Positions 14,095-28,699 of a stretch of DNA of 64,000 nucleotides are shown here, piece after piece. Position numbers and translations under genes: made by a program. The notes beneath the pieces were generated by a model, which was not told where the DNA came from, made no database searches, and was given only the letters and a program-made list of their open reading frames with translations. Source of the DNA: Bradyrhizobium sp. CB1015 (GTDB lineage Bacteria; Pseudomonadota; Alphaproteobacteria; Rhizobiales; Xanthobacteraceae). The stretch lies in NCBI RefSeq assembly GCF_025200925.1, contig NZ_CP104174.1, forward strand, positions 5,766,001 to 5,830,000, written 5' to 3'. Every line of letters starts with the position of its first letter. The first letter of the stretch is position 1.

Positions 14095-14160
14095 GCGAGT
14101 GGCGAATGGCGAGTAGCGAATAGATCTTCCCCTATTCGCTACTCCCACCTCGCCATTCGC
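14095..14160 (-). repeat. Heptamer-built hairpin, copy A (rpoA-rplQ spacer)
   Basis: Four degenerate 7-nt units (GCGAGTG, GCGAATG, GCGAGTA, GCGAATA) at 14095-14122 face four inverted units (TATTCGC, TACTCCC, ACCTCGC, CATTCGC) at 14133-14160 across a 10-nt loop. The element directly abuts the rpoA stop codon. Related copies lie at 15757-15823 and 28636-28699. Confidence 0.85.
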
Positions 14161-15192
14161 TCAGTAATGATCCTCAAAGCGCTTGGCGAGCTCGTCGATG
14201 TTCTCCGGCGGCCAGCCCGGCACTTCCATGCCGAGGTGCAGACCCATCTGGGCCAGCACTTCCTTGATCTCGTTCAGCGACTTGCGGCCGAAGTTCGGAG
14301 TGCGGAGCATCTCCGCCTCGCTCTTCTGCACGAGGTCGCCGATATAGACGATGTTGTCGTTCTTCAGGCAGTTGGCCGAACGCACCGACAGCTCGAGCTC
14401 GTCCACCTTCTTGAGGAAGGCCGGGTTGAAGGCGAGGTCCGGGATGATCTCCTGGGCGACTTCCTTGCGCGGCTCTTCGAAGTTGACGAACACGTTGAGC
14501 TGATCCTGCAGGATGCGGGCGGCGTAAGCCACCGAGTCATCCGGCGTGATCGCGCCGTTGGTCTCGATCGTCATGGTCAGCTTGTCGTAGTCGAGGATCT
14601 GGCCCTCGCGGGTGTTCTCGACCTTGTAGGAGACCTTGCGGACCGGCGAGTACAGGCTGTCGACCGGGATCAGGCCGATCGGCGCGTCCTCGGGACGGTT
14701 GCGCTCGGCGGGCACGTAGCCCTTGCCGGTCGAGACCGTGAACTCCATGCGGATCTCGGCGCCCTCGTCGAGCGTGCAGATCTGCAGATCGGGGTTGAGC
14801 ACCACGACATCGCCGACGGTCTGGATGTCGCCGGCGGTGACGACGCCCGGCCCCTGCTTCTTCACGACCATGCGCTTGGGGCCTTCGCCCTGCATCTTGA
14901 TCGAGATGTCCTTGATGTTCAGCACGATGTCGGTGACGTCCTCACGGACGCCCGCGATCGAGGAGAACTCGTGCAGCACGCCGTCGATGTGCACCGACTG
15001 CACCGCCGCGCCCTGGAGCGAGGAGAGCAGGATGCGGCGCAGCGCATTGCCGAGGGTCTGGCCGAAGCCACGCTCGAGCGGCTCGGCGACGATGGTCGCG
15101 AAACGCGAGGAATCGCTGCCGGGCGTGACCTGGAGCTTGTTCGGCCGAATCAGTTCTTGCCAATTTTTCTGGATCGTCACTGTTTCACCCAT
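14161..15192 (-). CDS. rpoA: DNA-directed RNA polymerase subunit alpha
   Basis: 343 residues from the ATG at 15192 (MGETVTIQKNWQELI); in-frame codons upstream add 25 residues of unlikely sequence. The N-terminal assembly domain includes GFGQTLGNALRRILLSSLQG, the alpha-dimer motif. The C-terminal domain has LELSVRSANCLKNDNI, GDLVQKSEAEML and FGRKSLNEIKEVL, the helices that contact UP elements and activators. It nucleates polymerase assembly. It lies between rpsK and rplQ in the standard alpha operon order. Confidence 0.98.
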   Translation of the reverse strand: MGETVTIQKNWQELIRPNKLQVTPGSDSSRFATIVAEPLERGFGQTLGNALRRILLSSLQGAAVQSVHIDGVLHEFSSIAGVREDVTDIVLNIKDISIKMQGEGPKRMVVKKQGPGVVTAGDIQTVGDVVVLNPDLQICTLDEGAEIRMEFTVSTGKGYVPAERNRPEDAPIGLIPVDSLYSPVRKVSYKVENTREGQILDYDKLTMTIETNGAITPDDSVAYAARILQDQLNVFVNFEEPRKEVAQEIIPDLAFNPAFLKKVDELELSVRSANCLKNDNIVYIGDLVQKSEAEMLRTPNFGRKSLNEIKEVLAQMGLHLGMEVPGWPPENIDELAKRFEDHY

Positions 15193-15306
15193 ACAGGCCA
15201 GTCGATTTGACGGTGCAAATACTGGCGTTGGAGAAAGGCCGCAGATCATCCCCGCGGCTTCTTGCAAAGTCGCTGCGGGCGCCGACGCGCCCGCAACTGG
15301 TAGAAA

Positions 15307-15696
15307 TCAAACGCGCCGACGCTTGCGGGGACGGCAACCGTTGTGCGGGATCGTGGTCACGTCGCGGATCGAGGTGACGGTGAAGCCGGCGGCCTGGAGC
15401 GCGCGGAGCGCCGATTCGCGGCCCGAACCGGGACCGGCGACCTCGACTTCCAGCGTGCGCATGCCGTGCTCCTGCGCCTTCTTGGACACGTCCTCGGCGG
15501 CGACCTGCGCGGCGTACGGGGTCGACTTGCGCGAGCCCTTGAAGCCCATCGTGCCGGCCGAAGACCAGGCGATCGTGTTGCCCTGCGCGTCGGTGATGGT
15601 GATGGTCGTGTTGTTGAACGACGAGTTCACATGCGCGACGCCGGAGGCGATGTTCTTGCGCTCACGACGACGAACGCGGGTGGCTTCCTTGCCCAT
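15307..15696 (-). CDS. rpsK: 30S ribosomal protein S11
   Basis: 129 residues. S11 forms part of the 30S platform and the mRNA exit site. VNSSFNNTTITITDAQGN, SSAGTMGFKGSRKSTPYAAQ and the C-terminal TTIPHNGCRPRKRRRV are diagnostic. It starts 131 bp after rpsM, with heptamer hairpin copy B in the spacer, and is followed by rpoA after 114 bp. Confidence 0.98.
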   Translation of the reverse strand: MGKEATRVRRRERKNIASGVAHVNSSFNNTTITITDAQGNTIAWSSAGTMGFKGSRKSTPYAAQVAAEDVSKKAQEHGMRTLEVEVAGPGSGRESALRALQAAGFTVTSIRDVTTIPHNGCRPRKRRRV

Positions 15697-15756
15697 TGAG
15701 TCCCTTTCCTGAAGATCTCAAACGCCGCCGTAATGCCAGCGGCTACACCTGTGGAA

Positions 15757-15823
15757 GCGAATAGCGAGTAGCGAATGGCGAATAGGGAAGCCCCCTACTC
15801 GCCACTCGCCACGTCCAATTCGC
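15757..15823 (-). repeat. Heptamer-built hairpin, copy B (rpsM-rpsK spacer)
   Basis: Four units (GCGAATA, GCGAGTA, GCGAATG, GCGAATA) at 15757-15784 face inverted units (TACTCGC, CACTCGC, a degenerate CACGTCC, AATTCGC) at 15796-15823. The element begins 4 nt after the rpsM stop codon on the transcribed strand. It is the same family as the copies near 14.1 and 28.7 kb. Confidence 0.82.
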
Positions 15824-15827
15824 CAGT

Positions 15828-27543: not shown

Positions 27544-27544
27544 C

Positions 27545-28258
27545 TCACGCCTCCTGCGCAGCCGGAGCGGCTTCCGCGTCGCCAGCAACCTTGAACTTGC
27601 CGGGCTTCGGAGCTTCCTTCGGCAGCGGCTTCTTGACGGCGTCGCGCACGCGGATCCAGCCGCCCTTGGAGCCGGGAACGGCGCCTTCGACGAGGATCAG
27701 GCCGCGCTCGACATCGGTCTGGACGACGCGAAGGTTGAGCGTGGTGATGCGGTCGACACCCATGTGGCCGGGCATCTTCTTGTTCTTCCAGGTCTTGCCG
27801 GGGTCCTGACGGCCGCCGGTCGAGCCGATCGAGCGGTGCGAGATCGACACACCGTGCGTGGCGCGCAGACCGCCGAAGTTCCAGCGCTTCATGCCGCCGG
27901 CGAAGCCCTTACCGACCGAGGTGCCGGTGACGTCGACGAACTGGCCGACGACGAAGTGGTCGGCCTGGATCTCGGCGCCGACCGGGATCATGGCGTCCGC
28001 GGTGACGCGGAATTCCTCGACCCGGCGCTTCGGCTCGACCTTGGCGACCGCGAACTGGCCGCGCTCGGCCTTCGGCATGTAAACGGTCTTGCGGCTGCCC
28101 GAACCGAGCTGGAGCGCGACGTAACCGTTCTTCTCTTCGGTGCGGTGGCCTACGACCTGGCAATTGCCGAGCTTCAGCACGGTCACGGGGATATGTTCGC
28201 CGGCCTCCGTGAAGACCCGCGTCATCCCGACCTTTTGTGCGATCACTCCGGAGCGCAT
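27545..28258 (-). CDS. rplC: 50S ribosomal protein L3
   Basis: 237 residues from MRSGVIAQKVG at 28258. L3 has a long loop that reaches the peptidyl-transferase centre, here FAGGMKRWNFGGLRATHGVSISHRSIGSTGGRQDPGKTWKNKKMPGHMG. The central Gln of GRQDPG is the residue methylated by PrmB in E. coli. The C-terminal Pro/Ala/Glu tail is somewhat extended. It lies 52 bp after rpsJ. Confidence 0.98.
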   Translation of the reverse strand: MRSGVIAQKVGMTRVFTEAGEHIPVTVLKLGNCQVVGHRTEEKNGYVALQLGSGSRKTVYMPKAERGQFAVAKVEPKRRVEEFRVTADAMIPVGAEIQADHFVVGQFVDVTGTSVGKGFAGGMKRWNFGGLRATHGVSISHRSIGSTGGRQDPGKTWKNKKMPGHMGVDRITTLNLRVVQTDVERGLILVEGAVPGSKGGWIRVRDAVKKPLPKEAPKPGKFKVAGDAEAAPAAQEA

Positions 28259-28310
28259 CGGCTTGCTTCCTGTTCTCTTTGTCCGCTTTTGGCGAACGGG
28301 ATCCAAAATC

Positions 28311-28619
28311 TTAGAGCTTGATCTCGACGTCGACACCGGCGGCCAGGTCGAGCTTCATCAGAGCATCGACGGTCTGCGGGGTCGGATCGACGATGTCGAG
28401 CAGGCGCTTGTGCGTGCGCATCTCGAACTGTTCGCGGCTCTTCTTGTCGACGTGGGGCGAACGGTTGACGGTGAACTTCTCGATGCGGGTGGGCAGCGGA
28501 ATGGGTCCGCGGACCTGCGCGCCGGTGCGCTTCGCCGTGTTCACGATCTCACGGGTCGACGTATCGAGGATACGATGGTCGAACGCCTTGAGACGGATAC
28601 GAATGTTTTGGCCGTTCAT
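28311..28619 (-). CDS. rpsJ: 30S ribosomal protein S10 (NusE)
   Basis: 102 residues. S10 is a 30S head protein and, as NusE, couples ribosomes to RNA polymerase through NusG and Nus[44 protein letters not shown] is diagnostic. It follows tuf by 83 bp with heptamer hairpin copy C in the spacer. Confidence 0.98.
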
Positions 28620-28635
28620 TGCCGTGCTTTCTTTA

Positions 28636-28699
28636 GTGAGTGGCGAGTAGCGAGTAGCGAATAGAGTTCCCTATTCGCCACTCACCATTCCCTATTCGC
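28636..28699 (-). repeat. Heptamer-built hairpin, copy C (tuf-rpsJ spacer)
   Basis: Four units (GTGAGTG, GCGAGTA, GCGAGTA, GCGAATA) at 28636-28663 face four inverted units (TATTCGC, CACTCAC, CATTCCC, TATTCGC) at 28672-28699 around an 8-nt loop. The element starts 3 nt after the tuf stop codon on the transcribed strand. It shares its design and placement with the copies after rpoA and rpsM. Confidence 0.83.

Follow-up and report, generated by a model that had tools for sequence, protein, structure and literature searches.

This report concerns a 64,000-nucleotide (nt) stretch of the genome of Bradyrhizobium sp. CB1015 (contig NZ_CP104174.1, positions 5,766,001 to 5,830,000; the whole stretch is called the window here) and, within it, three hairpins built from 7-nt units that stand behind the stop codons of rpoA, rpsM and tuf in the ribosomal gene cluster (Table 1). 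A sequence-only reading of this DNA had noticed the three copies, each with four heptamers per arm and a loop of 8-11 nt, starting on the minus strand 0, 4 and 3 nt after the rpoA, rpsM and tuf stops, respectively, and all of this stands as described (loops of 10, 11 and 8 nt in the present parse; four heptamers in every arm). The proteins L17, RpoA, S11, S13, S10 and EF-Tu each scored above an NCBIfam cut-off, and each hairpin folds better than shuffled sequence (z-scores of -9.0 for rpoA, -8.7 for rpsM and -6.9 for tuf; 0/200 shuffles as good for each copy). Judging from sequence comparison, these hairpins are members of a family resembling repetitive extragenic palindromes (REPs) that has probably been partly domesticated as intercistronic RNA hairpins in the ribosomal cluster.

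Table 1. Heptamer hairpins of the ribosomal cluster and the genes that flank them (positions in the window).
Feature	Position	Strand	Details
Heptamer hairpin, rpoA-rplQ gap	14095..14160	-	arms 14133-14160 and 14095-14122, loop 14123-14132; 0 nt after rpoA stop
Heptamer hairpin, rpsM-rpsK gap	15757..15823	-	arms 15796-15823 and 15757-15784, loop 15785-15795; 4 nt after rpsM stop
Heptamer hairpin, tuf-rpsJ gap	28636..28699	-	arms 28672-28699 and 28636-28663, loop 28664-28671; 3 nt after tuf stop
tuf copy, inner two unit pairs and loop	28650..28685	-	14 base pairs (bp) with G-U over A-C and compensated changes (35-species alignment)
rpoA, host of the rpoA-slot copy	14161..15192	-	stop 14161-14163, TGA
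rplQ, downstream of the rpoA-slot copy	13599..14015	-	
rpsM, host of the rpsM-slot copy	15828..16196	-	stop TAA
rpsK, downstream of the rpsM-slot copy	15307..15696	-	
tuf, host of the tuf-slot copy	28703..29893	-	stop TAA
rpsJ, downstream of the tuf-slot copy	28311..28619	-	element-to-start gap 16 nt

The unit form GCGARTR, which had been given for these three copies, holds for the family as a whole, but several of their own units are GGGARTR or GTGARTR, or are broken (GGACGTG at rpsM, GCGAGGT at rpoA). Across the family, an arm usually strings together four heptamers G-C-G-A-R-T-R, is ~28 nt long and ends alike on both sides, and loops range from 1 to 68 nt. A search of the genome and its relatives for facing heptamer arrays, proposed with the sequence-only reading, found them widely. 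In the CB1015 genome (one 8,412,734-base contig, which holds the window) the pattern GCGARTRGCGARTR (two adjacent GCGARTR units) matched 64 times vs. 0 times for its reversed control; the matches group into 24 places, of which one is a chance match within a called gene (L032), one is degenerate (L029) and one is two-armed by eye and sub-threshold in the detector (L035). The detector accepted 21 two-armed elements there, at gene junctions, which gives the family at least 21 such copies in this genome. A three-unit pattern was present in 24/25 genomes of the genus (CB1015 included) vs. 1/16 others, and in a sample of the taxonomic family it was present in 46/149 genomes and 19/47 genera, with 0 to 107 matches per genome; the genome with 107 (G107; 4.5 Mb, 66% completeness) resembles a repeat expansion. 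At the level of the class a looser pattern matched 15/386 genomes, several of them with control matches, so that this count includes some simple repeats. Among 15 loci taken from outside the family, 8 have two arms, and all 8 overlap a called stop or start at most 9 nt after it. We regard this as a REP-like family of unusual heptamer architecture, and searches of the open-licence literature with six repeat fragments and related terms gave no title or abstract start that describes it.

Placement behind stop codons, the central claim of the sequence-only reading, is real and general. We measured it on 98 two-armed elements from 103 loci (9 of which held no two-armed element by the detector) in 15 genomes, namely CB1015, 11 others of the genus and 3 others of the family, with genes called by a purpose-built caller whose starts are less certain than its stops. 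Three elements that overlap a gene call were left out (two have a stop at 4 and 6 nt, respectively, and the third overlaps a called 3' end). The other 95, which form 46 orthologous groups by their flanks, lie in same-direction gaps (65 copies) or convergent gaps (30 copies); none of the copies or groups lies in a divergent gap, and divergent gaps make up 10485 of the 48200 nt of sampled intergenic DNA (an approximate background, taken from the window and from loci chosen around elements). Among same-direction copies, 58/65 overlap the stop or start no more than 11 nt after it. Many host gaps are so short that any insertion falls near a stop, and for this reason we compared placement with a null of uniform positions over the space that each gap offers, sparing the last 15 nt before the start: in gaps of at least 30 nt, 22/28 copies lie within 11 nt of the stop vs. 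8.8 expected (0/20000 simulations as high). The excess is unchanged with one copy per orthologous group (13/15 vs. 4.3 expected; 0/20000) and when the ribosomal-slot groups are removed as well (11/13 vs. 3.8 expected; 0/20000). Stop-codon seeking as the mechanism, which had been suggested as one possibility, does not follow from this: part of the placement comes from the short gaps, and at 27/125 flanking stops the element's units themselves form the codon (TAG); nonetheless, placement stays above the uniform null. We also considered an all-frame stop cassette, in which the 7-nt period would bring TAG into every frame at junctions of units ending in A, and rejected it, as G is the last letter in roughly half of the units and only 27/125 stops are made by the element.

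Gene junctions gain and lose copies, with empty sites known from one junction. Behind ugpE, among the genomes listed, nine (relatives or CB1015 itself) carry an element of ~100 nt and six do not; in the empty sites stop and start overlap, or lie 6 or 13 nt apart, or in one case enclose a 48-nt tandem repeat. That last junction (in G017, L231) holds a 14-nt unit, GTTTTTGGAAGTGA, about three times between stop and start. The ugpE pattern is one of insertion or loss, and no target duplication of the kind that marks a miniature inverted-repeat transposable element (MITE) is visible there, at the only junction with empty alleles, where the flanks have diverged. Absence from close relatives, which together with a lack of transcript effect had been named as a sign of chance insertion, is seen in some relatives at ugpE; the ribosomal slots are filled in many Bradyrhizobium species and in some other genera. 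When each copy is set against its nearest orthologue, positions 1, 3 and 4 of the unit changed in 4-6% of cases, position 6 in 9% and position 2 in 11%, the R positions in 16-20% (mostly transitions) and the loops in ~30% (transversions outnumbering transitions), a contrast between arm and loop that is somewhat inflated because the detector favours kept units; the G.GA.T. frame is thus kept, and loops and A/G positions diverge fast. Loops of non-orthologous copies reached the similarity threshold in 5/3840 pairs (0 when shuffled), all of them heptamer extensions in other genera. Transposition of a whole element with a conserved core is not supported, as loops are not common to copies. Linkage to a REP-associated tyrosine transposase (PF01797) was sought in the CB1015 genome and not found there: the one match (4537736-4538032) lies 134 kb from the nearest listed heptamer place (4672006).

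This mobility gives weight to a rival account, in which a selfish REP-like repeat inserts anywhere and survives only where it lands after a stop and ahead of the following ribosome-binding site, so that the ribosomal copies would be functionless old survivors. The empty sites, the range from 0 to 107 matches per genome and the many host gaps too short for insertion away from the stop are what it predicts; placement above the null for available room is not, and the ribosomal cluster speaks against it further. We checked 28 cluster gaps in CB1015 and up to 62 related loci (49-63 species per gap; slot tables drawn from L049-L110 of 80 loci, of which L072 lacks the rpoA anchor and 6/59 lack the rpsM anchor). 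Heptamer elements occupy tuf-rpsJ in 43/57 species, rpsM-rpsK in 26/59 and rpoA-rplQ in 9/56, and the other 25/28 gaps hold none, even though six of them have median lengths of 73-187 nt. With only three of 28 gaps used, and with the compensated, G-U-biased evolution at tuf described below, we consider the purely selfish account unlikely, if the most serious of the alternatives.

The tuf slot carries the most informative record. Its heptamer holders are Bradyrhizobium, one Rhodopseudomonas (L102), one Afipia (L103; absent from L101 and L105) and one Nitrobacter (L108), a distribution that suggests that the element predates the split of these genera, and a hairpin folds in 57/57 tuf slots (z -2.6 or lower; CGTC-like by eye in L080, L101 and L105). 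What pairs as G-U on one strand is mismatched as A-C on the other; if the transcript is selected for pairing, G-U should therefore outnumber A-C on the sense strand. Aligned across 35 of the 57 species, picked for alignability, the inner two unit pairs (14 bp) comprise 422 Watson-Crick, 55 G-U, 2 A-C and 4 other cells; on a tree of ten genes (FastTree; Fitch parsimony) they changed from Watson-Crick to G-U 25 times vs. 2 times to A-C, and 16 times from one Watson-Crick pair to another by changes on both sides. The covariation score at tuf was matched by 0/500 shuffles and by no slid version. The inner tuf helix thus appears to have been selected as sense-strand RNA and the outer pairing given up, and the evidence for domestication at tuf is good. 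At the rpsM slot it is moderate: inner stems hold 59 G-U vs. 19 A-C among 48 distinct stems, with relatedness uncorrected. An RNA-level role is supported at tuf and, more weakly, at rpsM.

Several observations weigh against domestication. At tuf itself the outer 14 pairs show the reverse of the inner ones (Watson-Crick to A-C 22 times vs. 2 times to G-U on the tree) and are mostly unpaired on the sense strand; whole stems are balanced (104 G-U vs. 121 A-C); the split into inner and outer halves was set post hoc, after unit-wise counts; and the aligned species were chosen for alignability. In the covariation test, pairs changed on both sides were matched by 4/500 shuffles and further pair types by 291/500, and common descent by itself can score above shuffles. 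Non-heptamer stems at tuf have no clear excess either way (9 G-U vs. 5 A-C); neither do the inner stems of the rpoA heptamer copies (6 G-U vs. 3 A-C), whose helix starts 0 nt after the stop (median). Finally, copies at large carry no RNA-pairing signature. We counted 57 same-direction copies outside the cluster, excluding five copies from ribosomal slots elsewhere (genomes at L140, L141, L166 and L186; conclusions are the same with them), and found 230 paired, 94 G-U and 120 A-C at R positions vs. 241 paired (standard deviation 9.9) when arms were permuted, so that the A/G positions of the two arms do not covary; in the inner 14 bp A-C exceeds G-U (49 G-U vs. 73 A-C; 17 vs. 33 with one copy per group, 24 copies). 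The claim that pairing is kept while units drift therefore survives for the inner tuf stem and, more weakly, for rpsM, but not for the outer tuf stem or for the family, whose arms vary independently; likewise, the compensatory changes that the sequence-only reading had asked for occur in the 14 inner bp at tuf, and copies outside the cluster show no covariation at the drifting positions.

Two general processes were tried on these data and rejected. Compensatory evolution throughout the family would raise changes of R in both arms, and these were seen in 37/600 cases vs. 19.1 if independent, with unit-shifted controls close by (22/450 at +1 and -1, 16/300 at -2 and 10/300 at +2). Quasi-palindrome correction predicts correlated arms, and the arms are independent.

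The missing signature outside the cluster adds to the case for a selfish repeat, and it also raises the alternative of an array read at the level of DNA, in which a protein (a nucleoid protein, gyrase or an element-copying enzyme) would recognise G-C-G-A-R-T-R on both strands and RNA pairing would be incidental. Such reading would fit units whose positions 5 and 7 are free among purines only and whose positions 1, 3 and 4 are well kept, the lack of a sense-strand G-U preference outside the cluster and loops of 1 to 68 nt. The post-stop side and the absence from divergent gaps, however, point to transcripts, the inner tuf stem is strongly asymmetric in favour of the sense strand, and no candidate binding protein was identified in this analysis; we hold this alternative to be improbable.

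At rpoA the evidence is slot-level. From the rpoA stop to a conserved downstream anchor a hairpin folds in 55/55 anchored species (z -2.6 or lower, simple shuffles), and it is of heptamer type in 9, of REP type by motif in 12 and a plain GC hairpin in 34, where the sequences fall into several unrelated kinds and a T run is frequent. A sequence like Br-REP1, one of two repeats (Br-REP1 and Br-REP2) described in B. japonicum USDA 110 (PMC5082802), lies in this slot in 9/55 species (at most 3 substitutions). The plain hairpin is absent by eye where the heptamer element sits, and the heptamer looks like a replacement rather than an addition. Since many other species have a GC-rich hairpin followed by T at this slot, the heptamer copy perhaps took the place of a hairpin resembling a terminator, and this lends some substance to the idea of intrinsic terminators or attenuators that set an expression step from rpoA, rpsM or tuf to the next gene. 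No T run follows the rpoA, rpsM or tuf hairpin on the transcribed strand, though, and scanning 13500-16500 (with the rpoA and rpsM copies, but not that of tuf) for terminators gave 0 sites; the genes downstream are ribosomal protein genes, and a sigma-70 scan of 13500-16500 found no promoter (other promoter types lie outside that scan). Of the alternatives weighed here we give this one the least credence.

Three further features of the rpoA-rplQ gap were noted. A second repeat, GCATGATCCGGAAAAGTGCGAAGCGGTTTTCCGA with variants, follows the post-stop hairpin in six loci (L050, L055, L061, L062, L084 and L091). Upstream of rplQ (14016-14094), a conserved stretch that starts GGGCGAACGCAGG has at most 2 substitutions in 55/56 loci; it has no match in Rfam and is perhaps the leader of the L17 gene. 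In Mesorhizobium albiziae (L118) and a Bosea sp. (L120) the gap holds post-stop hairpins with a 7-nt period by eye, of GTGAATG-like and GGCARTS-like units, respectively, and heptamer hairpins may be a wider class across Hyphomicrobiales.

Post-stop hairpins of REPs and bacterial interspersed mosaic elements (BIMEs) in E. coli are reported to impede 3' exonucleases; the heptamer hairpins likewise stand behind stops but differ in sequence and architecture, and may act in a similar way. In the reading that we favour, this is a family of REP-like extragenic palindromes of Bradyrhizobium and relatives that are gained and lost at gene junctions; the slot positions would be old, and at these slots the repeat would have been domesticated, its hairpin blocking 3'-to-5' decay or fixing where an RNA ends in the gap that follows tuf, rpsM or rpoA. 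At tuf only, the outer pairing may have been lost so that the helix begins ~10 nt or more after the stop (the median first paired base is at 10 nt), because in E. coli a REP hairpin that lies no more than 15 nt from a stop is reported to stall ribosomes (PMC12306157, PMC5082802). We confine this ribosome-distance idea to tuf because the rpoA helix starts at 0 nt and lacks a clear G-U excess, and we reject avoidance of the ribosome footprint as a general rule, which fits tuf and not the rpoA copies. The same E. coli effect, stated in those two papers, could instead be turned into a translation-level role by analogy: hairpins within 15 nt of the stop would stall terminating ribosomes and lower expression of the upstream gene. 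Pairing begins at a median of 3 nt after the stop among 49 copies at -3 to 15 nt from a stop (a few of them ribosomal-slot copies of other genomes), which agrees with it, but it would be strange for rpoA, rpsM and tuf to bear a permanent penalty, and the outer pairing is lost at tuf, and we doubt it about as strongly as the DNA-level array.

Post-stop placement as such is already known from other repeats: in PMC3733652, most REPs are not divergent and lie near the 3' ends of open reading frames (<20 bp for convergent ones, in the genomes shown), GTAG REP termini often yield a TAG stop, and GTAG/CGTC REPs are known in Bradyrhizobium. The heptamer family shares with these the status of multi-copy extragenic palindromes in same-direction and convergent junctions, at 3' gene ends, with a self-made TAG. 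GTAG/CGTC REPs differ in having stems of 6-13 bp with a single terminal tag (vs. 28-nt arms with GCGARTR at both ends) and a family-specific body (vs. loops not common to copies), and no tyrosine transposase lies near heptamer copies in the CB1015 genome. Br-REP1 and Br-REP2 are from the same genus and form hairpins in 3' untranslated regions, Br-REP1-like sequence even occupying the rpoA slot in some species, but they have an unrelated consensus and no GCGARTR unit. TAACTGA heptamers of Beggiatoaceae (PMC4679880) are likewise tandem 7-nt units in intergenic DNA, also at putative ribosomal protein operons; they are repeated directly, in most cases shortly before a start codon, without a facing inverted arm.

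In the CB1015 genome, 12/20 scanned host or neighbour proteins of heptamer copies pass a cut-off, namely TypA, AtpD, UgpE, UrtD, BCCP (AccB), FliE, a thiolase, BoxC, an arginyltransferase, MntH, cynase and xanthine phosphoribosyltransferase. By rplF, the nearest named relatives among the matches listed are Bradyrhizobium strains, with B. japonicum in8p8 (L049) and B. yuanmingense (L071) both at 98% identity. Elsewhere in the window, 52129-52201 is a tRNA gene, the sole Rfam match above threshold.

REPs have long been suspected of either selfishness or RNA function, and the heptamer family shows both states within the same genomes: most copies lack any pairing signature on the sense strand, and a few conserved ones stand in essential operons, at least one of them evolving like an RNA helix. 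This is a natural experiment in how a mobile palindrome becomes a regulatory RNA part. It bears on whether post-stop hairpins set expression steps in alphaproteobacterial ribosomal operons. More tentatively, and with somewhat less than even confidence, we suggest that rpoA, rpsM and tuf each require some hairpin right after their stops, for which heptamer elements, Br-REP1, CGTC-like REPs and plain GC hairpins may be interchangeable and replace one another; if this is true, mobile palindromes would offer a ready stock of RNA parts, in which the heptamer family represents a new architecture.

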